A stretch of 64,000 nt of DNA from Solibacillus sp. FSL R7-0668 (GTDB lineage Bacteria > Bacillota > Bacilli > Bacillales_A > Planococcaceae), in assembly GCF_038006205.1 (NCBI RefSeq), contig NZ_JBBOUU010000001.1, positions 3,164,001-3,228,000 of the forward strand. The letters are read 5' to 3'. The position numbers were made by a program, and so were the translations under genes. The notes below the pieces were generated by a model. The model had not been told where the DNA came from. It was given only the letters and a program-made list of their open reading frames with translations, and searched no databases. Positions 1,288 through 25,918 of the stretch are shown here, one piece after another. Every line of letters starts with the position of its first letter. The stretch's first letter is position 1.

Positions 1288-4200
1288 TTACTCAATAAAC
1301 TCAATTTGTTTATTTGATTTGATAATTTGCTTTAATTTTGCAGACAGAGTTGAAATATATTGATCGACATCCTGCTCCGTTGCCAATGTTTTCATAGGTA
1401 CTAATGTCGTCACCTTTACTGATTCCTTTTGAACAACTACTTCCTCTACTGATGGGACATTCGATTCGCCACCGATTATACGCTGCTGCTCTGCTTTACG
1501 CTTTGCTTCCTGTGCAATGTCTTGACTAATTATGCGGCTCATTCTGTCCTTTAAGCTCGCACTTTGAGAAATAGTTGCATCCACCTTATAAATGTCTGTA
1601 AATGCTGTAACATCAGCTAATAACTTAGTAAAATTAAATTCAACATTTTGCTTTGTTTCAGCAGATACACCATATTGTCGAGATAATAATGATACCTCAT
1701 CGTAATCTAGTTGCACCTTTTCTTGTGCAAAAGCAATTTTGTCTGTTAAGACTTTATTAAATAAAACATCAAGAGCATTCGTTAGCTCTGGGATTTCTTT
1801 AATTTCCTTATATGGAATCGAATCATTTAGTATCGCCTGTAGTTGCTGCATTGGCTGTTCAATCTCTTCACCAAATAGGTACGATTTATTTTCCTCGTAT
1901 TTTTTAAATGCCGCTAAGCCTTTATCGAATAACTCTTTTTGATTCGTTTCAAAGAAGCTTTTCACATAAGCAATATCCTCTTCCCAATCTAACAGGTTAT
2001 CCTCTAACTCTTTTAGCTTTTCAAAGAAAGAAACACTATCTAATTTGGAATCAAATTGCTCGAAATACTCTAGCCCTTTATTTAATAGGCTCATCCCTGG
2101 GTATTTACGTCCTTCATAACGAGCCTTATAGCCTTTAATTTCATTAATTTGCGTTTCCATTAAGCCTTGAATGTCTTTTAGTAAACCATCCTCATCATCT
2201 GCTAAGTTCGTTGTATTAAACACATCCTTACAAATACTTTTAGCAGTTCGAATTAATGCTTCATCTACTTTAGTACGTTTTACTATAATCGCTTTTTCTG
2301 ATTCTGACGACTTCACTAATGTTGTAATAATTTTATTCGTATCTTTTACTGGCTCAATATATTCAGAATTGTAGCGAATGCGAATACGTTGCTCTGTTAA
2401 TAATTCAGCAATAAGTGCAGCAATATCTAACAACTTCCACCCATATGGCTTATCCTGATAACGATCATATATTTTTTTTATCGTTATTTGTTTCTTAATT
2501 TGATCCTGTAAATCAACAAATTCAAATACTTCACGCTTTGCCTCTTGGTTAGGCTTTGCCACAATGGAATCATCCAAAGACAATTGACTGTTATCCGTAT
2601 TTAACAAAGCAACTAAATCTTTTTCGCTATCTAAATGCTCTTGAATATAGCCTAATTTAATAAAGACGTTATCTACTAGCACTTTAAATGCTGCATTGAT
2701 TTTTTCTTTTACAGAAGAGCCTTTAATTTCTACCTTTTCTCCGTAAATGTAGAATTCTGCATCCTTAATAGCCTCTGTTAATAAGTCTCTTACGCGACGT
2801 TTACGATCCTTTATTTCGACTTGCTTGTTATTTAAAATATTTTGAATGTTTTCTGGTTGCTGTAATGGATTTTTCTTTTTACGATAGTCCTCAATTTTTA
2901 GTGCTTCTTCCATTTCCTCCACATAAGAATCATTTGCACCTAGCTTGATAAGCATTTCTCCACTGCCAGATGTAAGCAGCATTAACTCCTGCTGTGATTT
3001 TTGATAATGGTCTGATAATGGTGAAATAATTTGCACACCAATCGAAGACGTTTGGTTGCCGTAATTTTTTTCATCCATCTTTTGATTAAATGGGAAAGCA
3101 TAGTGTTTTGAATAGTTAAAACGCTTTTCTTCATATAGATCAAGGAAGATCGTATTCGCTAACTCACGTTTTAGTACATCCTCATCGATCGTCACTTGCT
3201 TAATTTCACGGTTAATATCCTGCTCATCATCTGTCAAGAACACATAGTAGTCACCGTTTTTCTGAATCAATGTTTGAGCAATTAATTTACGAACAGCTGA
3301 TTTAATCTTCTCTTTTAATTGTAATTTGTCCTCATCAATGTTTGTTACCATTAATGTTGCGATGTTATCAATAGTAGCTGGCAGCTCTTTCACGTACTTA
3401 ATCATGAATAGCACTTTTAATAAATCGATATTTAATTCATCATTTTTTAACTCTGGATTTTCTTTTGCTCCCTCAATTACACGTGAAATCGCTGGATTTA
3501 AAAATTCCTTGATTGTATCGTAAAAGGCATAGAATGGAATTAACGTACCTTCTTCTTCCTGCTTGTAGTATAGTGCTGCTTCTTTAAAAGCAGACAGCAT
3601 TGAACGCTCTCCCTCAGATAAATGCTTACCTGACGATCCATGCTTACGTACCTGTTCAAATACATTTTGAAGTAGCTTAAATTGGTACGGAATAAATGGA
3701 TACACTTCTGCAAATTCTTGTTCATTATCATAGCCGCGTAAATCAGCTGTGCTTTCACGGAAGCTAATTAGATTTTTTAATATCGCACTTTTCTCTGGAT
3801 AAATAGCCTTTAATTTATCTGTTACATGCGGCTGCTTTTCTAAAATACGCTTTTTGATTACTTCATCAACTGAAATTGAAGATAAAGACAAGCGTGTATC
3901 AAAACGTCCTTGAATACGTGAGAAGTCATCGCCTTTTACTTTAATAATAGAATCGATGCTTTCCTGAGATGTAACCATTACCCATACTTTACCTTCAGCG
4001 TAAGTACCTAAATCCTCTGTTAGCGTTTGCAAATTAAGCATTAAATTACGGTTATCACCGATATATTGTCCAATCTCATCTACTAAAAATACTAAATGGA
4101 AATTTGGTCCCTTTGAATCTATGTATTCCTTTACGTCTTTCGCAAACGTTTGAATATCCATTTCAAAGTCATCTACTTTTTCTTCAATCCATTTGCGTGC

Positions 4201-4863
4201 AGAAGCCTCTGACAGATTAATAACTTTTCCTAAAGCTTCAATGACAAAATCTTGATCAAAATAGAATGTGCTACGGCGTGCTTCCCAGCTTTCGCCTACA
4301 AGCGATTGGAACTCTTGCTTAAATGCTTCAAATTTGCCTTGCTTATCAAGGTATTTCTCCATTTCAGCAACACCTGGAATATCTCCGTAATAGCCACGGT
4401 GCTCATAAAATACTTTCATAAACACACGTAAAATGGCATCTTCTTTTGATTTGTTATCTAAAGAACTTTTTGAATCAATATTGAATAAAACAACTTCCGT
4501 TTCAATGTCTGCTGCTTTTTTCATATTGGCATATACTAATGGATCTTTAATCTTATCTTCAAATAGATTTACAGGATATTCATTTTCCACCATACGGTTT
4601 TCTAATAGGTATGCTAAAATCTTTAAGAAATGCGATTTACCTGAACCAAAGAAGCCACTAATCCAGACACCCATTTTATCCGTTTTCCCAACAATTCCTC
4701 GTTGGTAGTTATCATAAAACTTTGAAAAATGCTTATGGAGTTCTTGGGTTACTACATACTCATCTAACTCGTTATAAATATCCTTATCACTCGTTTGAGC
4801 TACTTTAATAACGCCACGTATATCACGTTCAATACTCTTTAAAAACATGTCCTTTAAAATCAT
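1288..4863 (-). CDS. brxC: BREX system P-loop ATPase BrxC
   Basis: BrxC (also called PglY) is the large ATPase of BREX, required for both defence and host methylation. The 1,191-residue length is normal for the family. A Walker A motif, GFFGSGKS, lies at residues 70-77, and a Walker B-like segment, FLVDEIGQ, at about 259-266, followed by a sensor-like VMVTSQES. The rest is a long, mostly helical, charged region. The start has an AGGGAGG ribosome site and lies 18 bases after the brxB stop. The order small ORF-brxA-brxB-brxC-pglX is that of a type 1 BREX operon. No frameshift or truncation is seen. Confidence 0.96.
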   Translation of the reverse strand: MILKDMFLKSIERDIRGVIKVAQTSDKDIYNELDEYVVTQELHKHFSKFYDNYQRGIVGKTDKMGVWISGFFGSGKSHFLKILAYLLENRMVENEYPVNLFEDKIKDPLVYANMKKAADIETEVVLFNIDSKSSLDNKSKEDAILRVFMKVFYEHRGYYGDIPGVAEMEKYLDKQGKFEAFKQEFQSLVGESWEARRSTFYFDQDFVIEALGKVINLSEASARKWIEEKVDDFEMDIQTFAKDVKEYIDSKGPNFHLVFLVDEIGQYIGDNRNLMLNLQTLTEDLGTYAEGKVWVMVTSQESIDSIIKVKGDDFSRIQGRFDTRLSLSSISVDEVIKKRILEKQPHVTDKLKAIYPEKSAILKNLISFRESTADLRGYDNEQEFAEVYPFIPYQFKLLQNVFEQVRKHGSSGKHLSEGERSMLSAFKEAALYYKQEEEGTLIPFYAFYDTIKEFLNPAISRVIEGAKENPELKNDELNIDLLKVLFMIKYVKELPATIDNIATLMVTNIDEDKLQLKEKIKSAVRKLIAQTLIQKNGDYYVFLTDDEQDINREIKQVTIDEDVLKRELANTIFLDLYEEKRFNYSKHYAFPFNQKMDEKNYGNQTSSIGVQIISPLSDHYQKSQQELMLLTSGSGEMLIKLGANDSYVEEMEEALKIEDYRKKKNPLQQPENIQNILNNKQVEIKDRKRRVRDLLTEAIKDAEFYIYGEKVEIKGSSVKEKINAAFKVLVDNVFIKLGYIQEHLDSEKDLVALLNTDNSQLSLDDSIVAKPNQEAKREVFEFVDLQDQIKKQITIKKIYDRYQDKPYGWKLLDIAALIAELLTEQRIRIRYNSEYIEPVKDTNKIITTLVKSSESEKAIIVKRTKVDEALIRTAKSICKDVFNTTNLADDEDGLLKDIQGLMETQINEIKGYKARYEGRKYPGMSLLNKGLEYFEQFDSKLDSVSFFEKLKELEDNLLDWEEDIAYVKSFFETNQKELFDKGLAAFKKYEENKSYLFGEEIEQPMQQLQAILNDSIPYKEIKEIPELTNALDVLFNKVLTDKIAFAQEKVQLDYDEVSLLSRQYGVSAETKQNVEFNFTKLLADVTAFTDIYKVDATISQSASLKDRMSRIISQDIAQEAKRKAEQQRIIGGESNVPSVEEVVVQKESVKVTTLVPMKTLATEQDVDQYISTLSAKLKQIIKSNKQIEFIE

Positions 4864-4881
4864 CTAAAAAGCCTCCCTATT

Positions 4882-5448
4882 CTAATCAATTAATCGAAAT
4901 GCTCTGTAATAGTTGTCATCCTTAAATTTGCTAAATAGCTGTAATGATTGCCCATCATATTGTCCAGGGAAGAACATAACAACTGGTGTCTTGTCTAAAA
5001 TTTCTTGTAGGTTGTTCAAAATGTTATGAGAACGCACAAAAGGATATACCTTCCCTACACCTGTAAGGAAAATCACATTATGACCTTCTAATTTTTCTTT
5101 GATTTTATTGAGGAAGATTTCTGGCTTTGCAAACGTTGTCATTGCTTTAAACAATGCTTCCTTGCCCTGCCTTTGTTCCATTTGGAAAATCCGCTCATAA
5201 ATACGCTTTTCTTTCGTGATTTCAAGGAGCGTCTTATATAAATCCACCTCTAATATTTGGCGTGTTGAGCCATCATAGTCGAATTCTTTTTTGATATGCT
5301 GTATATAATCTCTCATTTCAAGCTCATGAACAGGCTCGTAATCAAATACATAGAAGCTAATTTCGTTACCTAGACCTCTACCTTCAATAAACTTGTCTTC
5401 TTTTAGCTTTGGAATAATTTTGTCCAGTCGCTCATTAAAATTAACCAT
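4882..5448 (-). CDS. brxB: BREX protein BrxB (DUF1788)
   Basis: A 188-residue cytoplasmic protein of the BrxB/DUF1788 family, an essential but biochemically poorly defined BREX component. I place the start at 5448 (MVNFNERLDKIIPKL) rather than at the longer in-frame ATG at 5496. An AGGGGGC ribosome site sits just ahead of it, and the start then overlaps the brxA stop by 8 bases, as expected for translational coupling. The family-typical segment GKVYPFVRSH and the phrase VVMFFPGQYDGQSL are present at about residues 133-170. The gene lies between brxA and brxC, its canonical place. Confidence 0.95.
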   Translation of the reverse strand: MVNFNERLDKIIPKLKEDKFIEGRGLGNEISFYVFDYEPVHELEMRDYIQHIKKEFDYDGSTRQILEVDLYKTLLEITKEKRIYERIFQMEQRQGKEALFKAMTTFAKPEIFLNKIKEKLEGHNVIFLTGVGKVYPFVRSHNILNNLQEILDKTPVVMFFPGQYDGQSLQLFSKFKDDNYYRAFRLID

Positions 5449-6055
5449 GATAGCCCCCTGCTTCTCCCATTGCTTGTACATACTTAGCATCTCCAAGATG
5501 ATTCAGATGAATTTTTATACGCTCATCGATATACAAACGGTTTAACTCATTGGATTTTAAATTATTCAGTAAACCTGCATTTAACAAGATTTTTTTGAAC
5601 ACCTGTTTTAGTTTTGCTACCGTTGTATCCGACCAGCCAGCCATAAATGCACTCTGCTCCATCTTGGCTGCAAAAAAAATATTCACATCGACCTTATCAA
5701 GGTAATAATCATTGTTGTTTAACTTTTCAGCTACAACTTCCTGCATAAATTCATAAAAAAGACGATCAAATTTCATGATGGCATAAAGGTTGATCACTTT
5801 CCCTACCTCATACGGCTCATCAATCAACATTTGCCTTAGTGAATCGTCTAGTAAGTCTACTCGCTTTATAATATACGGTATTGCTCTTTTAACACTTGAA
5901 AGCTTTTCATATTGAAAAATGTTTTCTTCTAATACTTTATATCGAATTTCTTTATCAGAAAAACCTTGTTGCTTTAATTTTGCTACTTGCTTCACCTCGT
6001 AAAGCATAAATCCAGCACCTGTTAAGACAGAAGAATATTCTATATCCATTGTCAT
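5441..6055 (-). CDS. brxA: BREX protein BrxA (DUF1819)
   Basis: A 204-residue protein of the BrxA/DUF1819 family; a solved family member is an all-helical DNA-binding protein resembling the RNA-binding antiterminator NusB (recalled knowledge). The sequence is helical and charged, with the family-typical middle part around YAIMKFDRLFYEFMQEV and a C-terminal segment on INxxFxxKxxQSAFMAGWS. An AGGAG ribosome site lies 8 bases ahead of the ATG at 6055. The gene overlaps brxB by 8 bases and follows a small leader gene by 28 bases. Confidence 0.95.
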   Translation of the reverse strand: MTMDIEYSSVLTGAGFMLYEVKQVAKLKQQGFSDKEIRYKVLEENIFQYEKLSSVKRAIPYIIKRVDLLDDSLRQMLIDEPYEVGKVINLYAIMKFDRLFYEFMQEVVAEKLNNNDYYLDKVDVNIFFAAKMEQSAFMAGWSDTTVAKLKQVFKKILLNAGLLNNLKSNELNRLYIDERIKIHLNHLGDAKYVQAMGEAGGYHG

Positions 6056-6083
6056 TCATATCGCTCCTTCTATCAAGACTATT

Positions 6084-6323
6084 TCACTTGTTAATTTCCA
6101 CAATTTTCTTAATTAACGAAAGTCTTCTTTTTCCACATTGCTGCTGAACAATTTTTGTAAATACTCCATCCTTAATCAGCTTATCAGAGTTATTTAAATA
6201 CATACTATGTACATCTGAAATAAGTTCTTCTTCAGTTATTGCCTCTTGCCAATACGCATCTACTACTTCATTTATAGCCTTTGCTAAATCACGCTGTGTT
6301 CGATAAAAACGTTTTACAACCAA
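6084..6323 (-). CDS. Small protein at the head of the BREX operon
   Basis: A 79-residue protein, rich in charged residues and probably helical, beginning (M)VVKRFYRTQRDLAKAI and ending on a conserved-looking QCGKRRLSLIKKI. I place the start at a TTG (6323), because the upstream in-frame GTG at 6332 forms part of the GAGGTG ribosome site. It resembles small proteins of about 80-90 residues (TIGR04540, from memory) found in Firmicutes, sometimes ahead of brxA. It ends 28 bases before brxA, on the same strand. Its function is unknown; the position would suit a regulator or accessory factor, but that is inference. Confidence 0.7.
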   Translation of the reverse strand: MVVKRFYRTQRDLAKAINEVVDAYWQEAITEEELISDVHSMYLNNSDKLIKDGVFTKIVQQQCGKRRLSLIKKIVEINK

Positions 6324-6332
6324 CTGAAACAC

Positions 6333-6979
6333 CTCAATTACATTATTAGTACAATATTTATATCTTATTCTTACTTTATTCTTATTAAAGGGTTACTTCA
6401 AGGTCAAAATCAAATATGTACCACAAACTTTTGAACATCACAATTAGTATGTCCATTACATACATTGAATCGGCAAGCTATGAAGTTACAAAACTAAGCT
6501 CATTAACTTCTACATAATATCAGCGAGCGTATTGTTAAAACATTTTTGCTGATCCACTTACTTAACGCTACATAATTTGGCAGGCAATCGTTGCTACTTT
6601 CCTGTATTCACTTCAACCTTGGTAGCAAGTTAAGTAGTGCAGCATTTCACCTCCGTGTAAGCGATCGGTTAGGGGGATATTGCCTAAGTAATTCCGCCCC
6701 TCAACCCTTGGTACTAAAGCATTCTTGACAAAAAATTTAAAAATTTTTTTCGGATTTTTTTCGAGATTTTTTTATCTTTTTTTTCGAGTTTTAAACTCTG
6801 ATTAGACTAAAATCCTTGGAAGAATCAAATAATAGTTTTTTTAGTCGAATCCTTCCATTGTTATTTACCTCGCCTTTAATGGAATATTTATTTAATAGTT
6901 TTTCTAGTCAATTCCTTCCAACAATAATCCCTCAATTTTCATAAATTTAGCTTAAATATTCAAGGAACCGCTATGGCTT
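6333..6979. other. Intergenic region upstream of the BREX operon, no gene seen
   Basis: No credible reading frame was found here. The part next to the small BREX leader gene must hold the BREX promoter; on the minus strand a TTGAAG/TAAAGT pair with 17-base spacing lies about 60-90 bases upstream, a weak match. A G/C-rich inverted repeat (GGTT-A-GGGG at 6667-6675 against CCCC-TC-AACC at 6697-6706) could form a hairpin. From 6727 to about 6800 the plus strand is an unusual T-rich tract broken by CGG and CGAG. The first degenerate copy of the ~127-bp repeat (GGAAGAATC) appears near 6819. Confidence 0.6.
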
Positions 6980-6990
6980 TTTTGATATAA

Positions 6991-7533
6991 GTTGTATAAA
7001 TGTTATATAACTTATATTCTTTTTGGCATAAGTTGTATAATTGTTATATAACTTTTTTGCATTATTTTGCTCTGTAGGAGCTTTTTCATTGGAAGAATCT
7101 AATTATAGTTTTTTTGGTCATTTTCTTCCTCTTAAATTCCCTTCAAACTTATATAACAGTTGTATACAAGTTATATAATTGTTGTATAAATGTTATATAA
7201 CTTTTGTCCTTTCCCATTGGAAGAATTTAGTTGTAGTTTTTTCAGTCATTCTCTTCCTCTTAAATTCCTTTCAAACTTATGTAACAGTTATATATAAGTT
7301 ATATAATTGTTGTATAAATGTTATATAACTTTTGCCTTTTTCATTGGAATAATCTAATTGTAGTTTTTTCGGTCATTCTCTTCCTCTTAATTTCCCTTTA
7401 AACTTATATAACAGTTGTATATAAGTTATATAAATGTTGTATAACTTATGTCTTTTTCCATATAAATGTGGCATTAATATCCGAGAAACACCCTATGTTT
7501 TTTCGATATAAGTTGTATAAATGTTATACAACT
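6991..7533. repeat. Clusters of phased 11-bp iterons (GTTRTATAANT)
   Basis: Six clusters of head-to-tail 11-base units with consensus GTTRTATAANT, each cluster in exact 11-base register. Clusters: 6991-7012 (2 units), 7032-7053 (2), 7148-7202 (5), 7276-7330 (5), 7403-7446 (4) and 7512-7533 (2), about 20 units in total. Many units are nearly palindromic (GTTATATAAC). The 11-base spacing places every unit on nearly the same face of the helix, as in iteron arrays bound by replication initiators or partition proteins. No protein candidate for binding them is encoded nearby. The function is unknown. Confidence 0.85.
7087..7468. repeat. ~127-bp tandem repeat carrying the iteron clusters
   Basis: Three consecutive copies start with CATTGGAAGAATC at 7087, CATTGGAAGAATT at 7215 and CATTGGAATAATC at 7342, giving periods of 128 and 127 bases. 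Each copy has a conserved front half (TAGTTTTTTYRGTCATT, then CTTCCTCTTAA) and a back half formed by an 11-bp iteron cluster. More divergent relatives lie near 6819 and 6890. There is no reading frame through it. Divergence among copies is mostly single-base, so the array is not the product of a very recent expansion. Confidence 0.85.
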
Positions 7534-7552
7534 ATTTGGCAGCATAAAATCA

Positions 7553-9358
7553 AAACACTGTAAATTAAAAAGAAAAGGGCATTTAGACCTCAAGTGTAGC
7601 TGTTGATCTGAATGCTCTTATAGCCCCTATTTGTTTGATATTATTGACTTATGATTTAGTTGCCTTTAATTCAGACACGCATCAATTATGTCTGAATTGT
7701 GACAACTGTGTACAACAAATTCCTATATGTGCGCACGCACTCGTTTCCACCTTCGAACTAGAGGCAGGTAATGCTGTAAATACGTCCGTGCTTAATCCTA
7801 CCTGTTATCGTATTACTACAAGCTAGCTTTACGGATTACTCTCGCTCCAAGCACGCTTATGCCATTTCGTTTACTAGCACGTACCAGGAAATATCAAAAC
7901 ACTGTTAATTTAAAAATGCATTTAGACCTCAAATGTATCTGTTGATCCGAATGCTCTTATAGCCCCTATTTGTTTGAATTTATTGACTTATGATTTAGTT
8001 GGTCTTACTTCAGGTACATTACATTTGTGTCTAATTTGTGACAACTGTGTACAACAAATTCCTATATGTGTGTACGCTCTCGTTTTCCCCTTCGAACTAG
8101 AGGCAGGTAATGCTGTAAATACGTCCGTGCTTAATCCTACCTGTTATCGTATTACTACAAGCTAGCTTTACGGATTACTCTCGCTCCAAGCACGCTTATG
8201 CCATTTCGTTTACTAGCACGTACCACCGAATATCAAAACACTATTAATTAAAAAGTAAAAGTCATTTAGACCTCAAGTGTAGCTGCTGGGTCGAACGTTC
8301 TTATACCCTTTTTTGTTTGAAATTATTGGCTTATAATTTAGTTAACTTTACGTAACGACAGGTATATTAAATTTGTGTCTAAAATGTGACAACTGTGTAC
8401 AACAAATTCCTATATGTGTGCACATACTCGTTTTTCCCTTCGAACTAGAGGCAAGTCTTGGTGTACATACGTCCGTGTGTAAGCCTACTTGTGTCGAATT
8501 ACCACAAGCGAGCTTTACGGATTACTCCCGCTCCGAGCCTGTTTCTAGCATTTCGTTTACTAGCACGTATCACGGAATATCAAAACACTGTTAATTAAAA
8601 AGAAAAGTCATTTAGACCTCAAGTGTAGCTGCTGGGTCGAACGTTCTTATAGCCCTTATTTGTTTGAATTTATCGATTTATTATTTAATTGCTTTTAATA
8701 TAGGCAGGCATTAAATGTGTCCAAAATGTGACAACTGTGTACAACAAATTCCTATATGTGTGCATGCACTCGTTTTTCCCTTCGAACTAGAGGCAAGTCT
8801 TGGTGTACATACGTCCGTGTGTAAGCCTACTTGTGTCGAATTACCACAAGCGAGCTTTACGGATTACTCCCGCTCCGAGCCTGTTTCTAGCATTTCGTTT
8901 ACTAGCACGTATCACGGAATATCAAAACACTGTTAATTAAAAAGAAAAGTCATTTAGACCTCAAGTGTAGCTGCTGGGTCGAACGTTCTTATAGCCCTTA
9001 TTTGTTTGAATTTATCGATTTATTATTTAATTGCTTTTAATATAGGCAGGCATTAAATGTGTCCAAAATGTGACAACTGTGTACAACAAATTCCTATATG
9101 TGTGCATGCACTCGTTTCCACCTTCGAACTAGAGGCAGGTCTTGGTGTACATATGTCCGTGCTTAAACCTACTTGTTGTCGTATTACTACAACCGAGTTT
9201 TACGGATTACTTTCGCTACAAGCACGTTTATGCCATTTTGTTTACTGGCACGTATCATGGAAAAGCCAAACACTATTAATTAAAAAGAAAAAGGTATTTA
9301 GACCTCAAATATAGTTGCTGATCTAAATACCCTGATAACCCATATTCGTTTGAAATTA
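7553..9358. repeat. ~343-bp tandem repeat array, five full copies and a partial sixth
   Basis: The marker CATTTAGACCTCAA recurs at 7580, 7919, 8263, 8609 and 8951, with a variant TATTTAGACCTCAA at 9295; periods are 339-346 bases. Copies 4 and 5 are almost identical, so part of the array expanded recently. The core GTGACAACTGTGTACAAC is unchanged in all copies. Each junction holds an inverted repeat that, read on the minus strand, is followed by a T-rich run and looks like an intrinsic terminator; the last copy has a perfect 10-base stem (GGTATTTAGA/TCTAAATACC). Short frames of 63-85 codons exist in each copy but lack ribosome sites and a shared start, so I regard the array as non-coding. Confidence 0.88.
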
Positions 9359-9775
9359 GTGTCTTTAAATTTAGGGCACTTAACGGCAAAAGTAGTATGC
9401 GTGCTGTAAATATTAATACCGTGCAAAGTTGATGCGGTGTATGCTACCCTGCTGTTTCACCACAATTCCTTCCTAACTTATAGCTTTTCGATTTATAGTA
9501 GCTATCCAGCATCTAAAAAATATGCTTCCCAATCATCATATCTATCTTCTAAAATTAGGAGAATACTCCGCTATGCTAGCCATCAAATTACTAAAATGAC
9601 CTGAATCCCCAGTTACCTTTCTGTACAAATCATCGTTACTTAACATACCTTTTCATATTATTTTTTTAAGATATTTTTTATTTAATGTTTAATTATTGTT
9701 TCAAACTAAGATTATGCGTAAAAGTCCACAGTATCGAATATGCGGGCTGTTTTCTAAACTTTATAATTCTCATAC
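9359..9775. other. Intergenic, no feature recognised
   Basis: I see no gene, repeat or structured RNA between the end of the 343-bp array and the terminator of the next gene. A short phrase, GGGCTGTTTTCT-AAC, at about 9748 is echoed at 11411 in the upstream hairpin of the neighbouring intergenic region, which may be chance or the trace of a shared small repeat. Confidence 0.5.
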
Positions 9776-9822
9776 AAAATAAAAAAAATAGTAGTACAGA
9801 CCATGCCTTGGTCCGTACTACC
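9776..9822 (-). terminator. Intrinsic terminator of the stalk-domain protein gene
   Basis: On the minus strand a 13-base stem (9809-9821 with 9791-9803, one G-U pair) and a 5-base loop are followed by a run of eight T. It lies 19 bases after the stop codon at 9841. Confidence 0.88.
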
Positions 9823-9840
9823 ATTGTTAATATGCTTTTG

Positions 9841-10992
9841 CTACAATTTCAGTTTTTTATTTGGTTCAGAGATATAAATCACCAATGATGATGGTAGTGC
9901 ATTTACATATACTTCACGATTTCCAACTTTAATTGTTTTGTTGAATTTTTTGTATACATCTGCATTTCCTTCTGCACCTTTTTCAATTAAATTGTAGAAT
10001 TCATTGCCTTTAGCAGTCCCAAAAAATAATCTTGAAATTTCCTTAAACGCATAAGGGGTTACGTTATCAATTAGTCGTTCTGTACCACCAGCATTCCAAT
10101 AATTGATCTGTACTGAATAATCACTGTGCTTTGTGCTGTAAGATACCATGATTGAATTTAACGTACTATACGGATTTAAGATGGCAGCATCGTCGGCTAG
10201 TTTTTCAAAACCTAGCTCATTAGCAAGAATATTAATATTTTTCTTATAATCCTTGGTAAATGCTTTTGATTTCCCCTTAAATGGTTTAATGCCTTCAGGT
10301 AATGGATACTTTTTGTTTAGAGCTTGATAAAGTCCTGTTGGAGATTCTTTCCACTTATTTGGAACATAAGGGTTTTCTTCAACTTCCAGATTTGTTGAGA
10401 GTTGGTCCTCTTTAATATTTTGAGTTCCAACGATTACCGTATACGCGGTACCTCTCTTTTTCAATGACACTTCATAATCGAATAGTTGATTTAGTGATTC
10501 GTATGGGACAAATAGATCTGAACCAATCATGATTGTTTTTAATCCCGTAGGAGTTGTAGTCCGTTTAGATTTTTTAACATGTAAGTGTTCCTTTACGCCA
10601 TCTACTTTGACCATTGCATTCGCTAACGTAAAATCATACTGTGAATTATCATGCGTTACCGTAGCATTATTCTCACTTGATGTTAATTCGTATTTGTCAC
10701 CCATACCTTCAACCGAAATTTCTAATGGAACATAAACTTGACCATTTCGTACAATTGGATTAACTTTCGCTTTTTCACCATTTACATAAATCGAATGACT
10801 TGCCTGTAATACTTGACGTTTATGTGCATCTGATGTCTTTATAAACATTTCATCAAGACTATAAAATGTGGTGCTTGCTACTGCTTTTTTGGGGATAGCT
10901 ACCAAAAACGCTGATAACATAAGCAAACTTATAATAATGATTGCTACAAATCTCGAAGTTGAATTAATAAAATTACTTTTTTCCATGTTCAT
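9841..10992 (-). CDS. Secreted copper amine oxidase N-terminal (stalk) domain protein
   Basis: A 383-residue exported protein. Residues 1-38 form a signal peptide: charged start, hydrophobic FVAIIIISLLMLSAFLVAI, and a likely cleavage after AVAS. Residues ~65-205 match the copper-amine-oxidase N-terminal (stalk) domain, with INVNGE-like IYVNGEKAKV, the two-part 'VYVPLEIS... LFVPYESLNQLFDYEV' pattern and a closing YTVIVG. This domain is a beta-rich envelope module in Firmicutes and implies no oxidase activity. The C-terminal 170 residues are unrecognised. AAAGGA lies ahead of the ATG. It is divergent from the secreted protease at 11640, with which it may share surface function; that is inference. 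Confidence 0.85.
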   Translation of the reverse strand: MNMEKSNFINSTSRFVAIIIISLLMLSAFLVAIPKKAVASTTFYSLDEMFIKTSDAHKRQVLQASHSIYVNGEKAKVNPIVRNGQVYVPLEISVEGMGDKYELTSSENNATVTHDNSQYDFTLANAMVKVDGVKEHLHVKKSKRTTTPTGLKTIMIGSDLFVPYESLNQLFDYEVSLKKRGTAYTVIVGTQNIKEDQLSTNLEVEENPYVPNKWKESPTGLYQALNKKYPLPEGIKPFKGKSKAFTKDYKKNINILANELGFEKLADDAAILNPYSTLNSIMVSYSTKHSDYSVQINYWNAGGTERLIDNVTPYAFKEISRLFFGTAKGNEFYNLIEKGAEGNADVYKKFNKTIKVGNREVYVNALPSSLVIYISEPNKKLKL

Positions 10993-11639
10993 ATAATCTG
11001 ATTCCTTTCTTTAAATAGTGCTCAATCAACAGCTCACACCATTAATAAATACAATTTTTCTACACATATTCATGCAAGATTTTGAAATAAAAAGTAGACA
11101 ATTTATCCTTACATGATTAGTAATTTATTAATTACCAATTTAGTGCATCGGTAAAAATAATAGCAACTAAAACTTTGATGGTCAAATATATATTGGTAAA
11201 TAAAGGATACGAAAGGGAGTTAAACATACTTTTTATCTGCTGATTTGATGACACGAATCGTACTTAGATTATCTATGATCAATGGAATTTCTTATCACTT
11301 TGAAGCAAATAAAATTATTATTTGCGTTACTATCCGCTTCAATGTAATTTGAGGAAAAAATTGTATTTTTGGATTAATAATTTTATAAAAAATAGTAATG
11401 TTTGCAAAATAGGGCTGTTTTCTGAACAAAAATAGCCCTATTCTGCTCTTTTCCTCCTATGTTTTGGATATTTTGGTAGAATGAATTCTAGGTACTTAGT
11501 TTGAATTTAATTAAACATTTTTTGTTATAAATAAATCTTTATTTCTATACAATGAAACGAGTTTACGAAAAAGGAGAAAGTTTATACATATTCAACTTCA
11601 AAGGGCTCTAATTTTATTGTGAAGATTTTAGGAGGATGA
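10993..11639. other. Divergent intergenic region with one strong hairpin
   Basis: The region separates two divergent genes for exported proteins and must carry both promoters. A perfect 9-base inverted repeat, AATAGGGCT (11408-11416) and AGCCCTATT (11434-11442), is flanked by A and T runs on both sides and could be a bidirectional terminator or an operator. A TATACA/TACAAT element near 11545 with TTGTTA 18 bases upstream may be the protease promoter. No reading frame is credible. Confidence 0.5.
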
Positions 11640-14288
11640 ATGAGAGTGCGGAACAATCAAAATCAAATTTCTAAAATGAAAGAAGCTTTGAATCGTGTTT
11701 TAAAAAGCAAAAAAGTTCAAAGTAGGGCATTGGTTATTGGCTTAGCTGTATTAGGAGCCAGCTTAGCAAGCCCATCCTATTCACTTGCAAATGAAAAAAC
11801 ATCAGAAGTACGTATAACGACAAAAACAAATATCGGTGACGCTGAATTAGTGGATACGAAAGGTGCAACATATGAAGTAGATCAAAATAAGCGTTTTGAA
11901 GTTCTTGTTATGTATAAGAATTTAGAAGGTTTAGAGTATGCTGAAAAAATTGGTAAGCCAGTTCTTGGTGGCGATGATTTAAAGGTTTTTAATATCGTTA
12001 AAATCAAAACGAATAATGCTGGGTTAAAGAAGTTGCAAAAAAATAAAAATATTCTCTCTGCTGAAATTAATGTACGTGTTGAAGTGAAAAAGCAAGGTTC
12101 AACAATGGAATCAACACATTCAAAGGTATATGAAGTACGTCCAGGAGAACATGCATCATGGGCTTATAAGCATATGAATATTCAAGAAGCTTATAAAAAG
12201 GATGTAACAGGTAAAGGGGTCAAAATAGCAATTGCCGATTCAGGTGTAGCTGGACATTCAGACTTAAAAATTGTAGATCAGCATATTGTAAATGATAATG
12301 TATCGAATCTAACAGACAATAATGGTCATGGTACACATGTAGCAGGTATTGTCGGTGCAGCAGACAATGGCAGTGGTGCAATTGGTGTTGCTCCAAATGT
12401 TCAAATGTATTCGATTAAATTAGATGATGACGAGGGTAAACTTTATGCATCAGATATGTTAGATGGATTACGTTGGGCTTTAGAGAATAATATTGACATT
12501 TACAATGCTAGTTTTGGAAACTCATTAAATTCCCCAATTTATCAAGCTGCAATTGATGCTGCATACGAAAAAGGATTAATGATTGTGGCGGCTACAGGTA
12601 ATGAAAGTGAAGGTAAAGTTGGATTTCCTGCTGCGTATGACAATGTCATTGCAGTCGGTTCAATTGGAAGTAATGGAACATTAGAATATTACTCAAACTA
12701 TGGTCCTGAAGTTGATTTTGTTGCTCCAGGTTCTATCATTACAAGTACATCTAATAAAGGTGATTTTGAAACTCGTTCAGGTACGTCAATGGCTACTCCA
12801 TTAGTATCGGGCGTGTTGGCATTATTAATGGAAGAATTTCCAAACCAAACAGCTGATTGGTATTATAATGCATTAAAGGATATGTCAAAAGATGTAGAAT
12901 CTCCAGGCTTTGATAATAAGTCAGGTCATGGTATGCCTCAATATGAGCCATCTGAAATTAAGGATGAAGTTGAAGAAAATAATGATGAAATTACATCGGT
13001 AGAAGATTTGCCGATAAATGAGCAGCGTATTTATGAGTTAGTATGGGATTATATTAATGATCCGTCAGGGAAGCCAGCGAGTCAACGTCCAAAAGACTTT
13101 GAGCGTGCGGAAGAATTAGTAGAATTAATTACGCCTTCTATTGTGCGAGATAAGTTGATCGAGCAATTGCATAAAGAAGATTATGCAAAGGATATTGCTT
13201 TATCAACAGGTGAAAAGTATGAGAAAAAATTGCCTCAAACAATTGAGGAATTGCCTTATGAAGAAAGACGTTATGCCACTCAGGTAGAGCGTTATCTTGA
13301 AGAAATGAAAGAGACGACACGTGAAAGTCGATTTGAATATTATAAAAATCGTGTGACGAATATGATTAAGGATAAGTTATCTCCATCACCTGTTTTAGAC
13401 AGACTTTTAGCAGAGGCTCATAAGTATGGAGCTGTTTTAGATGTTCCGTATTCAAATGGCAGTAAGTATAACGGAGTGGTTTATGATTTTGATGATTTAC
13501 AAAAACCATCAGAGGTCATTCCGCCAATTGAAAAGCCTGATGAAGTGAAGCCAATCGTGCCAACACCTCCTGAAGTGAATGTTGGGGAAGAAACAAGTGT
13601 GCGTCATTTACCTAAAGAGCAGCAAGAATATTATAAACGAGCAGAATATTACCTTGATCGAGTACATGCGAGAAATGGTGAAACGATGCTTGAACAAGCT
13701 GCGATTTTTGTGTCATACATTAATGCATCGCCTATTAGAGATCGAATTTTAGCTAGAGTTCATCAATATGGTGGATTGTTAGATGTTCCTTACTCTAATG
13801 GTTATTTCTATCAAGGTGTTGTTACGAAGCCCTGGGAGAAATACAATAATTCGAATGTAGGCAATGGTGGTAACACTGGCAATGGTGGTAACACAGGAAA
13901 CGGTGGTAACACTGGCAATGGTGGCAACACTGGCAATGGTGGCAACACTGGCAATGGTGGTAACACTGGCAATGATGGTAACACTGGCAATGATGGTAAC
14001 ACTGGCAATGATGGTAACACTGGCAATGATGGTAACACTGGCAATGATGGTAACACAGGAAACGGTGGCTCAACAGATACTCCGTATGATCCTCCGAAAG
14101 AAATTGCAGATTCTTATTTGGCTTTAATTAAAGAGACATTGGATAGAGATATTGAAAGATTACGTTTAAGACCTTATTCATATGTTTCTCAAATGAACTT
14201 TGAAGCAGATATGCTGAAGATACCAAAAGAATATCCTGAAATGACAAAATATTATCGTGATCTTTACAATAGTATCGTTTCAAACTAA
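11640..14288 (+). CDS. Secreted subtilisin-like serine protease (S8) with C-terminal repeats
   Basis: An 882-residue exported endopeptidase of the subtilase family. A signal peptide (about 1-50, cleavage after YSLA) and a propeptide (about 51-165) precede the catalytic domain (about 175-430). The triad is visible: Asp200 in IADSGVAGH, His230 in NGHGTHVAG, Ser383 in GTSMATP, with oxyanion Asn321. The C-terminal half has three related ~90-residue modules starting LPxxExxY; the last two end in LDVPYSNGxxYxGVV. They are followed by a (GNTGNG/D)n linker at about 740-813 and a short helical tail. The C-terminal modules are unrecognised and may bind the cell surface. AGGAGG lies only 4 bases ahead of the ATG; a GTG two codons later is better spaced and could be the true start. 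Confidence 0.93.
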   Translation: MRVRNNQNQISKMKEALNRVLKSKKVQSRALVIGLAVLGASLASPSYSLANEKTSEVRITTKTNIGDAELVDTKGATYEVDQNKRFEVLVMYKNLEGLEYAEKIGKPVLGGDDLKVFNIVKIKTNNAGLKKLQKNKNILSAEINVRVEVKKQGSTMESTHSKVYEVRPGEHASWAYKHMNIQEAYKKDVTGKGVKIAIADSGVAGHSDLKIVDQHIVNDNVSNLTDNNGHGTHVAGIVGAADNGSGAIGVAPNVQMYSIKLDDDEGKLYASDMLDGLRWALENNIDIYNASFGNSLNSPIYQAAIDAAYEKGLMIVAATGNESEGKVGFPAAYDNVIAVGSIGSNGTLEYYSNYGPEVDFVAPGSIITSTSNKGDFETRSGTSMATPLVSGVLALLMEEFPNQTADWYYNALKDMSKDVESPGFDNKSGHGMPQYEPSEIKDEVEENNDEITSVEDLPINEQRIYELVWDYINDPSGKPASQRPKDFERAEELVELITPSIVRDKLIEQLHKEDYAKDIALSTGEKYEKKLPQTIEELPYEERRYATQVERYLEEMKETTRESRFEYYKNRVTNMIKDKLSPSPVLDRLLAEAHKYGAVLDVPYSNGSKYNGVVYDFDDLQKPSEVIPPIEKPDEVKPIVPTPPEVNVGEETSVRHLPKEQQEYYKRAEYYLDRVHARNGETMLEQAAIFVSYINASPIRDRILARVHQYGGLLDVPYSNGYFYQGVVTKPWEKYNNSNVGNGGNTGNGGNTGNGGNTGNGGNTGNGGNTGNGGNTGNDGNTGNDGNTGNDGNTGNDGNTGNDGNTGNGGSTDTPYDPPKEIADSYLALIKETLDRDIERLRLRPYSYVSQMNFEADMLKIPKEYPEMTKYYRDLYNSIVSN
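13860..14068 (+). repeat. 18-bp minisatellite encoding the Gly/Asn linker of the protease
   Basis: About 11-12 tandem copies of an 18-base unit encode Gly-Asn-Gly/Asp-Gly-Asn-Thr. The first copies carry GGT (Gly) and the last ones GAT (Asp) at one position, which shows segmental duplication. The array stays in frame with the protease gene, so unit-number changes would alter linker length without breaking the protein. Confidence 0.92.
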
Positions 14289-14311
14289 TAATATAATAAA
14301 ATAACTTGAAG

Positions 14312-14351
14312 GCTGTACTAGGAGAATTAATTTCCCTGGTACAGCTTTTTT
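14312..14351 (+). terminator. Intrinsic terminator of the subtilase gene
   Basis: GCTGTACTAGG pairs with CCTGGTACAGC (one G-U) and is followed by six T, 24 bases after the stop codon. Confidence 0.9.
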
Positions 14352-14689: not shown

Positions 14690-15255
14690 TTATGAATAGC
14701 TGATTCTATGTATCCGACACTTTTTTACGAATATTCATTTCTGCATGTTTGTAGAGTGTCGTATCTATACTTCAGCTGGCTTCACATCTTATAACCGATA
14801 TTCAGATGTGTTCGACACTTTTTTATGAATATTCATTTCTGCAAGTTTGTAGAGTGTCGTATCTATACTTCAGCTGACTTCACATTTTATAACCGATATT
14901 CAGATGTGTCCGACACTTTTTTACGAATATTCATTTCTGCAAGTTTGTAGAGTGTCGTATCTATACTTCAGCTGGCTCCACATCTTATAACCGATATTCA
15001 GATGTGTTCGACACTTTTTTACGAATATTCATTTCTGCATGTTTGTAGAGTGTCGTATCTATACTTCAGCTGGCTCCACATCTTATAACCGACTTTCAGA
15101 TGTGTCCAACACCTTTTTATGAATATTCATTTCTGCATGTTTGTAGAGTGTCGTATCTATACTTCAGCTGGTTTCACATCTTATAACCGACTTTCAGATG
15201 TGTCCGACATTTTTTTATGAATACTCATTTCTGCAAGTGTATAGCGTGGCGTAGC
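14690..15255. repeat. 98-bp tandem repeat array upstream of the excisionase/integrase pair
   Basis: The motif CGACACTTTTTTAYGAATA recurs at 14716, 14814, 14912, 15010, 15108 and 15206, an exact 98-base period without a single indel; the first and last copies are partial or diverged. Each unit holds two inverted repeats: CACATCT/AGATGTG around a 14-base loop, and CGACACT/AGTGTCG around a ~31-base loop. The array ends about 50 bases before the excisionase-like gene. It is non-coding. Such a place would suit recombinase accessory sites, but the unit is longer than known arm sites. Confidence 0.9.
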
Positions 15256-15307: not shown

Positions 15308-15580
15308 ATGGAACAAACTATTGAAAAATCAATCGAAGAAAAAATTGAAAACTTAATTACACAAAGCCTTGAAAAAAGACTTGGCGAAATAATTGGACAG
15401 AATAATGAGCTTGTAGCTAAAGAATGGTTAAACGTTCAAGAAACTTGCGATTATATCGGAATTTCCTATAAAAATTTACAAAAGCTTATTGATCAAGGTC
15501 TTAAATGTATTTCAATTGGTCGCAGCAAGCGATTCTCCAGAACGGAAATCAATCACTTTTTAAAAAATACACAAGCATAA
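15308..15580 (+). CDS. Excisionase-family helix-turn-helix DNA-binding protein
   Basis: A 90-residue protein. The N-terminal 35 residues are a charged, probably coiled helix; residues ~38-85 (WLNVQETCDYIGISYKNLQKL, then SIGRSKRFSRTEINHFL) match the winged-helix MerR/excisionase fold used by Xis-like recombination directionality factors. A GGAGG ribosome site lies ahead of the ATG. The integrase gene follows 33 bases downstream on the same strand, as in Tn916-type xis-int pairs. It could act as directionality factor, as repressor, or both. Confidence 0.85.
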   Translation: MEQTIEKSIEEKIENLITQSLEKRLGEIIGQNNELVAKEWLNVQETCDYIGISYKNLQKLIDQGLKCISIGRSKRFSRTEINHFLKNTQA

Positions 15581-15613: not shown

Positions 15614-16783
15614 ATGACAACAATGGAAAAAGCAGTTAAAGAATATATGAAAAGAGGCGTTCCTCATTATATGGTGAAAATGTATGGGGGTATCGATCCT
15701 ATTACGAAAAAACAAATCGACATTACAAAGCGTGGTTTTAAAACAAAAACTGAAGCAAAAGCTTTTTATGCCCAAAAACAAGCGGAAATGCTACAACGAA
15801 ATGATACTGATAATCCAGACCTTACATTTGAGCAATTCTATCATACTGACTATGAAGAATACCTTCATAATTGTTCCCTCGAAAAAAGTACTTTAGGGAA
15901 AATTAAAGGGATTTTCAAAAACCACATCCTACCTTTTTACGGAGATTTAAAGCTTAAAAATATTTCTTACCAAGATACTTTGCGGTCTTTTGAAGTATGG
16001 AAAGAAAAATTACAAAAACCATCAAAGGTAGCAATCGAACTAAATAAATGCTTAGAACAGGCTGCCCATAACGATTACATTCCGAAAAATCCCGTTAAAC
16101 TTGGTGGTTTACGATCATGGGAAAAAAAAGAAGAAAGAAAGAGAGTCAATGCACAAGGTGATAAATTGTTCTATACATTAGATGAAATAGATTTATTTAT
16201 TCAAAAGCTAAAAACAACAGATGATATTTCAAAAATTGCAAGTTTCCTCTTGCTTGTAAATTTAGGCTTACGCAAAGGAGAGCTTCTTGCACTACAATGG
16301 CAAGATATTGATTTTCAAAATAAAACAATCCATATTCATCAAGCAGTTGGTATGGACGAATTGAATAAGCCTTATATTAAAGCTACGAAGAACTTTTTAG
16401 TAAGAACACTTGATATTGATGAGGAAACTTTCCAAGCACTATTAAAATGGCAGGAGCTCCAAGCAGAACAATTAAAGTGGCAAAGTCTTGAGCATCAAGG
16501 TGATAAGCAGTTTATCTTCCCAAACAATAAAAATACTTTTTATACTAACAGCAAGTTAAATACCTGGTTAAAAAAGTTCCAAATCCAACACGGACTAAAA
16601 CTTGTTTCAATTCACGGCTTACGTCACAGTTGTGCTACTCGTATCTATTATCAAACGAAAGATATAAAATTCGTTCAACATTTCTTAGGTCACACAGACA
16701 TGGCAACAACGGTAGATACGTATATTCATTGCATTCCCGAAATAGGCAGTATGTTAGTAAAAGGTTTTAATCGTACTGCATAA
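15614..16783 (+). CDS. Tyrosine recombinase (phage/transposon integrase)
   Basis: A 389-residue site-specific recombinase. Residues ~15-70 (YMVKMYGGIDPITKKQ then TKRGFKTKTEAKAFY) are an arm-type DNA-binding domain, ~75-165 a core-binding helical domain, and ~185-385 the catalytic domain. Catalytic residues are visible: Arg near 220 (GLRKGELLALQW), the HGLRH motif near 335-339, LGHTDMATTVDTY with His near 359 and the nucleophilic Tyr near 369. GGAG precedes the ATG. With its excisionase it forms the recombination module of an integrative element, but no other genes of that element are clear; its attachment sites were not found. It may be a remnant nested in the larger island. Confidence 0.92.
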   Translation: MTTMEKAVKEYMKRGVPHYMVKMYGGIDPITKKQIDITKRGFKTKTEAKAFYAQKQAEMLQRNDTDNPDLTFEQFYHTDYEEYLHNCSLEKSTLGKIKGIFKNHILPFYGDLKLKNISYQDTLRSFEVWKEKLQKPSKVAIELNKCLEQAAHNDYIPKNPVKLGGLRSWEKKEERKRVNAQGDKLFYTLDEIDLFIQKLKTTDDISKIASFLLLVNLGLRKGELLALQWQDIDFQNKTIHIHQAVGMDELNKPYIKATKNFLVRTLDIDEETFQALLKWQELQAEQLKWQSLEHQGDKQFIFPNNKNTFYTNSKLNTWLKKFQIQHGLKLVSIHGLRHSCATRIYYQTKDIKFVQHFLGHTDMATTVDTYIHCIPEIGSMLVKGFNRTA

Positions 16784-17081: not shown

Positions 17082-17648
17082 TTAATTATTTTTAATAATT
17101 TTATACACGGTTGCCCTACCAATCCCATACTCCTTTGCAATATCTGTAGCACTTTCTCCTGCTTCAAACAATGCTCGTACATGCTTCTTTACTTTATCAT
17201 CAATAGCTGGTCTGCCTCCAATACGCCCACGTTTTCTAGCACTTTCTAACCCAGCCTTTGTCCTCTGTTGAATAATATCCCTTTCAAATTCAGCAAATAC
17301 AGCTAACATACCAAACATAGCTTTACCTGTTGGAGTAGTTGTATCAAATGCATCATTAATTGAAACAAACTCTACTCCCTTCTCATTTAATTCACCTGTT
17401 AATGTAAATAGCTCTTTCGTGCTTCTAGCTAAACGATCTAATTTAAACACAACAAATAAATCCCCATTAGCCGCAGCTTTCATTGCATGTTCAAGTTCTT
17501 GTCTTTCTACTTTACGACTAGAAATCTTTTCTACATATATGATTAGTTCTAATCCTTTTTCTTTAGCATATTTTTCAATGGCTTGCTCCTGCATATCTAA
17601 ATTTTGATCTTCCGTACTTACACGACAATATCCTATTACTCGTCCCAT
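17082..17648 (-). CDS. Serine recombinase (resolvase/invertase family)
   Basis: A 188-residue small serine recombinase. The N-terminal catalytic domain begins GRVIGYCRVSTEDQNLDMQ with the nucleophile Ser11 in RVST; FKLDRLARSTKEL, FDTTTPTGKAMFGMLAVFAEFERDIIQQRT and the long E-helix follow. The last 45 residues (IDDKVKKHVRALF then ESATDIAKEYGIGRATVYKII) form the helix-turn-helix that recognises the res site. I use the ATG at 17648; an in-frame GTG at 17660 is possible but poorly placed. A res-like inverted repeat lies directly upstream. The type is carried by transposons, plasmids and islands. Confidence 0.92.
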   Translation of the reverse strand: MGRVIGYCRVSTEDQNLDMQEQAIEKYAKEKGLELIIYVEKISSRKVERQELEHAMKAAANGDLFVVFKLDRLARSTKELFTLTGELNEKGVEFVSINDAFDTTTPTGKAMFGMLAVFAEFERDIIQQRTKAGLESARKRGRIGGRPAIDDKVKKHVRALFEAGESATDIAKEYGIGRATVYKIIKNN

Positions 17649-17697
17649 TTCTGACACCACTTTCTACAAACTTATACGTTTTATATACATTTAATAA

Positions 17698-24054: not shown

Positions 24055-24293
24055 CACATCCTTAATGCATCGTTTGTTTCAATTGTGTAGTGTAATAAAG
24101 GATTTTGCAAATATACAACCACTAATTACAAATAGCCTTTTTGCTATCACCATTATTACTCCATTAAATGTTCCCAAAATAAAGGTAGCTAATTTATTGG
24201 GAAACCATTTTTTATGAGTTATACTTACAATATAGTTAATCGCAGCATTAACTGTACCCCTAGTTTCCCTGTATGGTTCTAGGAGGCATTTTA

Positions 24294-25430
24294 ATGAAAG
24301 ACCCTATTAAATCATATACAAAAAAAGATGGCAAGACCTACTACATGTTTAAGCTTTATTTAGGAATAGATAGTCAAACAGGCAAACAAATTCATGTTAC
24401 TAGACGCGGCTTTTTAACAAAAAAAGAGGCTAGTCTCACTTTAGCTCAATTAAGAGTCGAAGTTAGTAAAGGGGAATATAAGAAGCCTATAACTGAAACA
24501 TACGAGGATCTATATAATGTCTGGATTCAGCACTACGAAAGAACTGTCGAAGAAAGCACCTTTGTCAAAACACTAGGAATTTTCAAGAATCATATTCTAC
24601 CTGCACTAGGTCACTACCGAATTGAGAAATTGAGTATAGCAATCTGCCAAAGCTTTGTCGATGACTGTTCATTGAAACTAAAAAGATTTCGAATGGTTAA
24701 AACTTACGCATCTAAAGTAATTGATTTTGCTATTAAGCGTGAATACATTAGTTCTAATCCATTCAAGCTAGTGGATCTCCCTAAAATCAAAGGTTCTGCT
24801 GTATTAGATACCGAAACCAACTATTATTCAAAAGAGCAGCTAATTGATTTTCTTGAATGCTTAAAGCAATATGGTAACGCTCAAATAACCGCATTTTACT
24901 ACCTGCTTGCTTTTTCAGGTATTCGTAAAGGGGAGGCTCTTGCATTAACCTGGGCAGATATAAATTTCGATACAAATGAACTGCTTATTACAAAAGCTCT
25001 TTCAAGAGGTAAAAATAACAAGCTTTATATCAAATCAACGAAAACCGATACGATACGCCAGCTTTTAATTGATGATGAAACATGCAGCATCTTATCTGAA
25101 TGGAAAAGGATTCAGCAAGTTAAATTTCCAAATGTGAATGACAAAAGCCAATTAATGTTTACAAACGAACAAAATGGCTTATTACAGCAAACGGTCCCCA
25201 GAAAATGGCTCATGAAAATCATCGACACTTACGGCTTGCCCTATACACATGTTCACTCATTTCGTCATGTGCATTGCTCTTTGCTTTTCGAAGCAGGTGC
25301 AAGTGTCAAAGAAGTACAAGAACGATTGGGTCACACAGATGTGCAAACAACGCTCAACATATATACGCACCTATCAAAGCGTGCAAAAAACGATACAATT
25401 AATAAGTTTGTGACGTACTTAAACTCATAA
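24294..25430 (+). CDS. Tyrosine recombinase, probable integrase of the ssrA island
   Basis: A 378-residue integrase. Residues ~5-60 (KSYTKKDGKTYYMFKLYLGID then TRRGFLTKKEAS) form the arm-binding domain, followed by a core-binding domain and a catalytic domain with Arg near 210 (SGIRKGEALALTW), HSFRH near 320-324, LGHTDVQTTLNIY with Tyr near 357. AGGAGG is 7 bases before the ATG at 24294. The gene ends 136 bases from the 3' end of ssrA, so this enzyme most likely integrated the island into the tmRNA gene. It is about the same size and layout as the integrase at 15614 but clearly different in sequence. Confidence 0.92.
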   Translation: MKDPIKSYTKKDGKTYYMFKLYLGIDSQTGKQIHVTRRGFLTKKEASLTLAQLRVEVSKGEYKKPITETYEDLYNVWIQHYERTVEESTFVKTLGIFKNHILPALGHYRIEKLSIAICQSFVDDCSLKLKRFRMVKTYASKVIDFAIKREYISSNPFKLVDLPKIKGSAVLDTETNYYSKEQLIDFLECLKQYGNAQITAFYYLLAFSGIRKGEALALTWADINFDTNELLITKALSRGKNNKLYIKSTKTDTIRQLLIDDETCSILSEWKRIQQVKFPNVNDKSQLMFTNEQNGLLQQTVPRKWLMKIIDTYGLPYTHVHSFRHVHCSLLFEAGASVKEVQERLGHTDVQTTLNIYTHLSKRAKNDTINKFVTYLNS

Positions 25431-25534: not shown

Positions 25535-25600
25535 CCACTCTAGACAACTCTAGAAAATTCAATTATGGAGACGGCGGGAGTCGAACCCGCGTCCAGAAGC
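25535..25600. other. Probable right attachment site at the ssrA 3' end
   Basis: The segment holds the junction between the island and the T-arm and acceptor end of tmRNA, next to the integrase. Tyrosine recombinases commonly recombine within the last bases of ssrA and restore the gene. No second copy of the tmRNA 3' end is found elsewhere in the window, so the other attachment site should lie left of position 1. The exact core cannot be set here. Confidence 0.5.
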
Positions 25601-25918
25601 TCCAATACGCCGGCTTCTACGCGTGTAGTTTGTCTACTTGCGATTCGCGAGTTCTTATGCCGACAAACAGGCGTCCGAATCGCTAACCTAGAAATCTCTT
25701 ATTACTGACTCAGGTGGCACCAGTAATCGTATCCCACTAAAGTTGGGCCCGACGTACTGCACATGGGCGATGCAGAGGCCGAGCGCTTACGAGCTTACGC
25801 TGCGAAAGCTAAGTTTTGTTGTTTGCCAGTTATTATATAACTTCCGTTGTTGACGAAGACGAGACCTCCGACGCGCGACCAGAGCTTGAACCACCCCTGT
25901 CGAATCCGTAACGTCCCC
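25566..25918 (-). ncRNA. ssrA: Transfer-messenger RNA (tmRNA)
   Basis: A 353-base tmRNA. The 5' end GGGGACGTTACGGATTCGAC pairs with the 3' end CGTCTCC to make the tRNA-like acceptor stem, and the T-arm GGGTTCGACTCCC is intact. The tag frame reads GKQQNLAFAA and a stop (GGC AAA CAA CAA ... GCG TAA, about 25797-25829). The genomic bases after the discriminator A are TAA rather than CCA, so the 3' CCA must be added after transcription. It rescues stalled ribosomes with SmpB, whose gene lies 5.5 kb away. Confidence 0.96.

Follow-up and report, generated by a model that had tools for sequence, protein, structure and literature searches.

In the 64,000-nt stretch of the Solibacillus sp. FSL R7-0668 genome analysed here (the window), 20 GTTRTATAA-type units form six clusters of 2, 2, 5, 5, 4 and 2 units (positions 6991-7533) with a unit spacing of 11 bp. 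This array is part of the backbone of an island at ssrA. Since it is also present beside anti-phage cargo other than BREX, it probably serves the mobile island itself and not one defence system. Judged from its sequence, the array is probably a phased direct-repeat site for protein loading. The reading we tentatively favour is that of a backbone loading site for the island's Xis-type winged-helix protein, which would polymerise with one repeat per turn to control recombination and perhaps the defence promoter. The features are listed in Table 1.

Table 1. Features of the array region and the island in window coordinates (strand: dot, none assigned).
Feature	Position	Strand	Remark
Cargo start: TIGR04540 protein, BrxA, BrxB, BrxC	1288..6332	-	operon continues leftwards beyond the window
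Right cargo border; sequence common to four islands begins	6655..6686	.	30-bp imperfect palindrome in the G005 island, half kept here
T runs (four, each of 7-8 T), centre-to-centre spacing 11, 12 and 10.5 bp	6743..6792	.	possibly curved DNA
39-bp element GGAA...TTCC, copy 1 of 5	6818..6856	.	
39-bp element, copy 2	6881..6919	.	
Iteron cluster 1	6991..7012	+	2 units
Iteron cluster 2	7032..7053	+	2 units
39-bp element, copy 3	7091..7129	.	
Iteron cluster 3	7148..7202	+	5 units, first inverted
39-bp element, copy 4	7219..7257	.	
Iteron cluster 4	7276..7330	+	5 units, first inverted
39-bp element, copy 5	7346..7384	.	
Iteron cluster 5	7403..7446	+	4 units, first inverted
Iteron cluster 6	7512..7533	+	2 units
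Tandem array of ~342 bp, 5.2 copies	7549..9320	.	conserved-core consensus: three TGTG words 11 bp apart, first varies
98-bp tandem array, 5.6 copies	14708..15253	.	directly upstream of xis
xis-like HTH_17 winged-helix protein	15308..15580	+	90 aa
Tyrosine integrase int389	15614..16783	+	arm-binding domain
Serine resolvase/invertase-like protein	17082..17660	-	conserved in four islands
Second tyrosine integrase	24273..25430	+	adjoins ssrA
tmRNA gene (ssrA)	25566..25918	-	island right end probably at its 3' end

For the unit statistics, 10-mers between positions 6980 and 7540 were scored against GTTRTAYAAC, requiring at least 8 of 10 matching letters. Within clusters, all 14 neighbour pairs are spaced by exactly 11 bp, while the 102 similar units in the remainder of the window form no pair at this distance. 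First-order Markov simulations of the array region (n=1000) yield on average 1.9 units (maximum 7) and 0.006 pairs at 11 bp (maximum 1). The first-pass annotation's description, i.e., about 20 units in six clusters with strict 11-bp register and up to five units in a row, is thereby confirmed. Allowing for one mismatch, the plain consensus is found 34 times in the window while 19.9 matches are expected; that is, the strong signal lies in the register and not in the word. Clusters 3 to 5 sit inside a 128-bp tandem duplication of 2.9 copies, such that the 20 units do not represent 20 independent events. A scattering of the same clusters through the genome, which by the annotation's account would have spoken against its reading, is not what we observe: the double unit (up to two mismatches) has 11 matches on the seven contigs, all at the array locus, and its reversed control none.

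To describe unit direction, we counted 70 units in 23 clusters from four islands, excluding isolated units and filling a 22-bp gap as one unit. The internal units start with GTT in 24/24 cases and end with AAC in 0/24, while the last units show the AAC end in 22/23 clusters. First units start with GTT in 13/23 clusters, and eight of the other ten are CTT units with an AAC end, i.e., inverted. Thus, the palindrome is complete only at cluster ends and the units are otherwise direct repeats. This disagrees with the earlier suggestion of a near-palindromic unit that allows a dimer on each repeat. Since internal units keep GTT and never show the mirror AAC, a symmetric dimer on every unit is unlikely, and the pattern fits better with head-to-tail binding that would be closed by one inverted half-site. 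Cluster 3 comprises five units in three islands and four in that of Solibacillus faecavium A46 (G005), a difference of one 11-bp step.

The four islands stem from a double-unit search (up to two mismatches) in 201 genomes, 32 of which show a match. More than two matches are found only in our own genome (G000; 11), G005 (6), G011 (10) and G014 (10), all from the same genus, while the other genomes have one or two matches each, and so does the reversed control in about 25 genomes. For 26 of the matches outside the arrays we inspected the locus: 22 have one pair, two have none and two (L020, L029) have a third in-register unit, which means that short runs do arise, by chance or otherwise. An iteron pair is also matched in four viral contigs; three in-register units are seen in L083, and no more than pairs in the remaining ones. 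The 342-core word has no match in viral contigs. No related DNA was found for positions 6900-7600 in plasmids or phages, for 7540-9400 in plasmids, or for 6640-9400 in phages.

The backbone of the ssrA island, comprising the 11-bp array, the 342-bp and 98-bp arrays, the HTH_17 excisionase gene (xis) and int389, is present in 4/16 genomes of the genus, and in all four islands these elements follow each other rightwards in exactly this order. The array's assignment to the island thus holds. In our genome, a stretch of about 5 kb (positions 9400-14400) separates the 342-bp array from the 98-bp one; in G011 the two are almost contiguous. This stretch, absent from the G011 island, contains a subtilase gene (11640-14288) whose 3' part includes 11.6 copies of an 18-bp tandem repeat. 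Judged by sequence matches to the tmRNA end, our island probably extends over about 42 kb, from an 18-bp copy of that end at genome position 3147818 (E 0.003) to window position 25578; tmRNA genes or copies of their ends are found near the islands of G011, G005 and G014, too. Between the backbone and the ssrA integrase, MzaC-like and MzaD-like genes (19632-23382) form a partial MZA-type defence set.

The int389 integrase is 86-93% identical among the array islands. Among 261 genomes of the family, it is found at E <1e-190 in the four array genomes and in Lysinibacillus xylanilyticus SR-86 (G101), and these five are also the genomes with strong xis matches (E 1e-41 or better). Within the genus, int389 is present at E 1e-80 in 4/4 array genomes vs. 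0/12 others (Fisher p 0.0005, with islands that are related, i.e., these are not four independent events). At E 1e-60, a more distant integrase is also seen in G006 and three other genomes. Our xis aligns to its relatives over its own, shorter length only, and the G101 copy is frameshifted. At 1e-6, xis matches 57/261 family genomes, mostly via its HTH part. Outside the genus, int389 and xis occur together, among the family genomes searched, only in the degenerate Lysinibacillus element of G101 (L046), which apparently has one 98-bp unit and in which neither phased iterons nor a 342-bp array were found. The 342-bp unit is present in the four array genomes, plus a 45-bp piece in G109. In this Lysinibacillus-group genome, the similarity to the core of the unit (L087, about 10000-10045) lies in repeats near type I restriction genes. 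A structured RNA was considered and rejected: the predicted folding of the leader on the far side of the border does not surpass that of its shuffles (z 1.09), and 4/37 predicted pairs of the 342-bp units show changes on both sides (one strand only).

The cargo left of the border differs between the islands. BREX is found in G000 and G011, while G005 and G014 carry a DrmD-like helicase together with a type III-like methylase and a type III-like nuclease (L043 10628-19687 and L044 10822-19903). When aligned from the border, the four islands are alike on the array side, and the other side is unrelated across cargo types. At the far border, G005 and G014 retain what looks like a degraded remnant of the 3' end of brxL. 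This suggests that BREX was replaced by the other cassette in these two genomes, in which case their array may once have shared an island with BREX. We also inspected the 27 BREX loci of the 261 family genomes, two of which have shortened flanks: in 25/27 no 11-bp pair is found within about 1.5 kb, and the array-positive loci are our own and that of G011. Given these numbers and the two array islands with other cargo, the array follows the island backbone and not BREX in general, and the link to BREX made in the first-pass annotation is not upheld. Its proposal to record the gene that co-occurs with the iterons in related genomes yields int389, xis and a 307-aa Rep-like gene in the same 4/16 genomes of the genus, with BREX in two of these. 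For the same reasons we rejected a BREX-specific regulatory element. The TIGR04540 BREX leader protein was likewise rejected as binder, with no homologue in the two other-cargo islands (chance-level matches only, searched up to E 10).

In the reading we favour, each GTTRTATA half-site would take up a single Xis molecule, so that successive helical turns carry monomers arranged head to tail; these would polymerise over each cluster and bend the DNA. The Xis-coated array would then serve recombination by the int389 module and, being located upstream of whichever defence operon sits on its left, may also set the transcription of that operon. Such a geometry is known for RDFs, for which three reports describe direct repeats one helical turn apart, cooperative head-to-tail binding and DNA bending, for some also at promoters (PMC7498355, PMC11963761, PMC5859096); for RdfS, no consensus binding motif was apparent. 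Like the sites of Apl of phage 186, lambda Xis and RdfS of ICEMlSym, the array has direct repeats spaced by one turn (10-11 bp) and an int-xis module in its vicinity, and the element encodes, next to its integrase, a Xis-type winged-helix protein by family and predicted fold, the latter being RdfS/BldC/Xis-like. On the other hand, it differs from RDF/Xis operators in having 20 units in six clusters, in adjoining defence cargo and in being seen neither at the xis promoter nor at an attachment core; by sequence it is a candidate site.

The predicted Xis fold (mean pLDDT 74) has RdfS as its best match, which is weak (E 0.02). Further matches are BldC, Pukovnik Xis and the phage P2 DNA-binding protein (probability 0.94-1.00), none of this top group being below E 0.001; the P2 protein we take to be Cox. 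Small terminases, RacA and ArsR-type repressors are matched as well, and of the five Xis models only the best exceeds a pLDDT of 55. In PHROGs, excisionase families are listed but rank below a general HTH family. Near xis relatives (L121-L135), no 11-bp pair of the iteron motif was found. Several observations stand against Xis as the binder. The upstream region of xis carries the 98-bp repeats and not the iteron motif. The 20 units exceed the 5 and 7 reported for Apl. With 90 aa, our Xis is 28-38 aa shorter than those of the other three islands (118-128 aa), yet our array is among the largest. A plain head-to-tail filament explains neither the closing inverted half-site nor the inverted first unit of the longer clusters, and the co-occurrence of array, xis and int389 may reflect only the common descent of the four related islands. 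The palindromic border, 336 bp from the array, could be an attachment core; neither a second core site for int389 nor a second copy of the border sequence was found.

The main alternative, somewhat less probable, is that the array is a replication or transfer origin of the excised island: the iterons would load the 307-aa Rep-like protein or a partner, and the T runs, the border palindrome and the 342-bp array would be further origin parts. The statement that no rep gene is in sight holds within the window but not for the island, since the 307-aa gene is located 16-17 kb left of the array (L137 7608-8531, i.e., genome 3153608-3154531, outside the window) and is present in all four array islands. 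There, its product is 80-93% identical to our copy, while it is absent at that level from the other genomes of the 16 in the genus; the genomes covered by this search were those of the genus, and on the G101 contig the gene was not found. The low-confidence model of the protein (pLDDT 59) matches the rolling-circle initiator RepDE (E 0.004, probability 0.90) and inovirus G2P (E 0.003, probability 0.89), and a distant relative touches Pfam Phage_CRI below the cut-off (E 0.12). These weak matches are, however, listed among unrelated ones such as Arp2/3 subunits, and no Pfam or PHROG match was obtained at 0.001 (relatives in both, our own copy in Pfam only). No close relative of the protein was found in plasmids, phages or viral contigs.

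Known replication systems offer partial parallels. The rolling-circle initiator RepB of pMV158 uses 11-bp direct repeats, three of them in the bind locus of its dso (PMC9943647), and our element likewise combines 11-bp tandem direct repeats with a Rep-like gene. The array, however, has many more units, the candidate gene is far off with membership in the RepB family not implied, and no nick site was identified. SGI1 (PMC7433901) is also a genomic island with xis-int, a replication gene (a candidate one in our case) and an iteron origin, but its iterons are 17 bp long, GC-rich and directly downstream of rep. The Rep-like gene is located on the far side of the cargo, with a distance to the border of about 11-18 kb, and no 11-bp array was found at its upstream end. 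Two distant Rep-like relatives have no 11-bp repeats, only a 2.8-copy AT-rich stretch about 2 kb off, and a distant relative at genome position 452079-452909 is without neighbouring iterons. The spacing of the T runs near 11 bp supports an origin, and such runs recur in the other islands (G011 also has four, while G005 and G014 have three each, of 6-8 T), but the border palindrome is incomplete in 2/4 islands. The three array regions contain no perfect DnaA box (TTATNCACA), only TTGTACACA-like words. By these observations, the array does not show a neighbouring rep gene, DnaA boxes or a hairpin for nicking, as an iteron or rolling-circle origin would. Since xis, unlike the Rep-like gene, is on the array's side of the differing cargo and the repeat geometry is of the RDF type, we lean, by a small margin, towards the Xis loading site.

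Less probable is an operator array of the defence cargo, i.e., a host or island regulator or a xenogeneic silencer that coats the AT-rich array and holds the adjoining operon down. In 4/4 islands the cargo operon has the array on its upstream side and points away from it, and the array's AT content of 72-75% exceeds the 65-70% of the islands. Repression of a defence island via three 9-bp direct repeats is described for RptR, whose operator also has short direct repeats upstream of a defence operon; there, the repeats contain a 6-bp palindrome and overlap the promoter, with rptR as the first gene. In viral contig L083 (10652-10684), two divergent genes flank three GTTATATAAC-like units that keep the 11-bp register, and by eye the product of one of these genes resembles a small HTH repressor. 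The word can thus occur in this register in a phage-type control region, which fits an operator as well. Against this explanation, about 660 bp separate the first gene from the start of the array in our island, promoter matches are fewer than in shuffles (8 vs. 15), the BREX leader protein lacks a homologue in the other-cargo islands, and the 25 other BREX loci manage without such an array.

That the array is a drifting tandem duplication without function we consider improbable. Copy numbers of the 128-bp unit and of other arrays do vary, and the spacers are as variable as third codon positions of int389 (326/410 vs. 308/390 invariant columns). Nevertheless, the 11-bp register is kept in four islands, and 67/75 iteron columns are invariant, which is a weak difference (p 0.054 vs. 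spacers, p 0.038 vs. third codon positions). Finally, R1-type parC also consists of 11-bp direct repeats in clusters of five, which our clusters of up to five resemble, but a ParR/parC-type centromere is very improbable: in accordance with the annotation's remark on missing parM and tubZ genes, a scan of the island proteins that covered most, though not all, frames from 80 aa upwards revealed no ParM, ParR or TubZ, and no conserved small ribbon-helix-helix-like frame was seen by eye in the shared backbone stretches examined.

To our knowledge, little is known about how mobile islands regulate and exchange anti-phage cargo, and our literature search (titles or abstract starts, with most subscription journals outside its scope) returned nothing on such arrays. 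In the islands described here, two defence cassettes that are unrelated to each other have occupied the same border of a single backbone, next to an elaborate site of phased repeats. A bolder and distinctly speculative view is that border and array form a cargo dock, where a Xis filament on the phased repeats would control whichever defence operon sits behind and would couple the expression of exchangeable cargo to the integrated or excised state. Should the array indeed be a site where a protein of the island polymerises, a single switch would govern both the mobility of the island and the expression of its defence genes.
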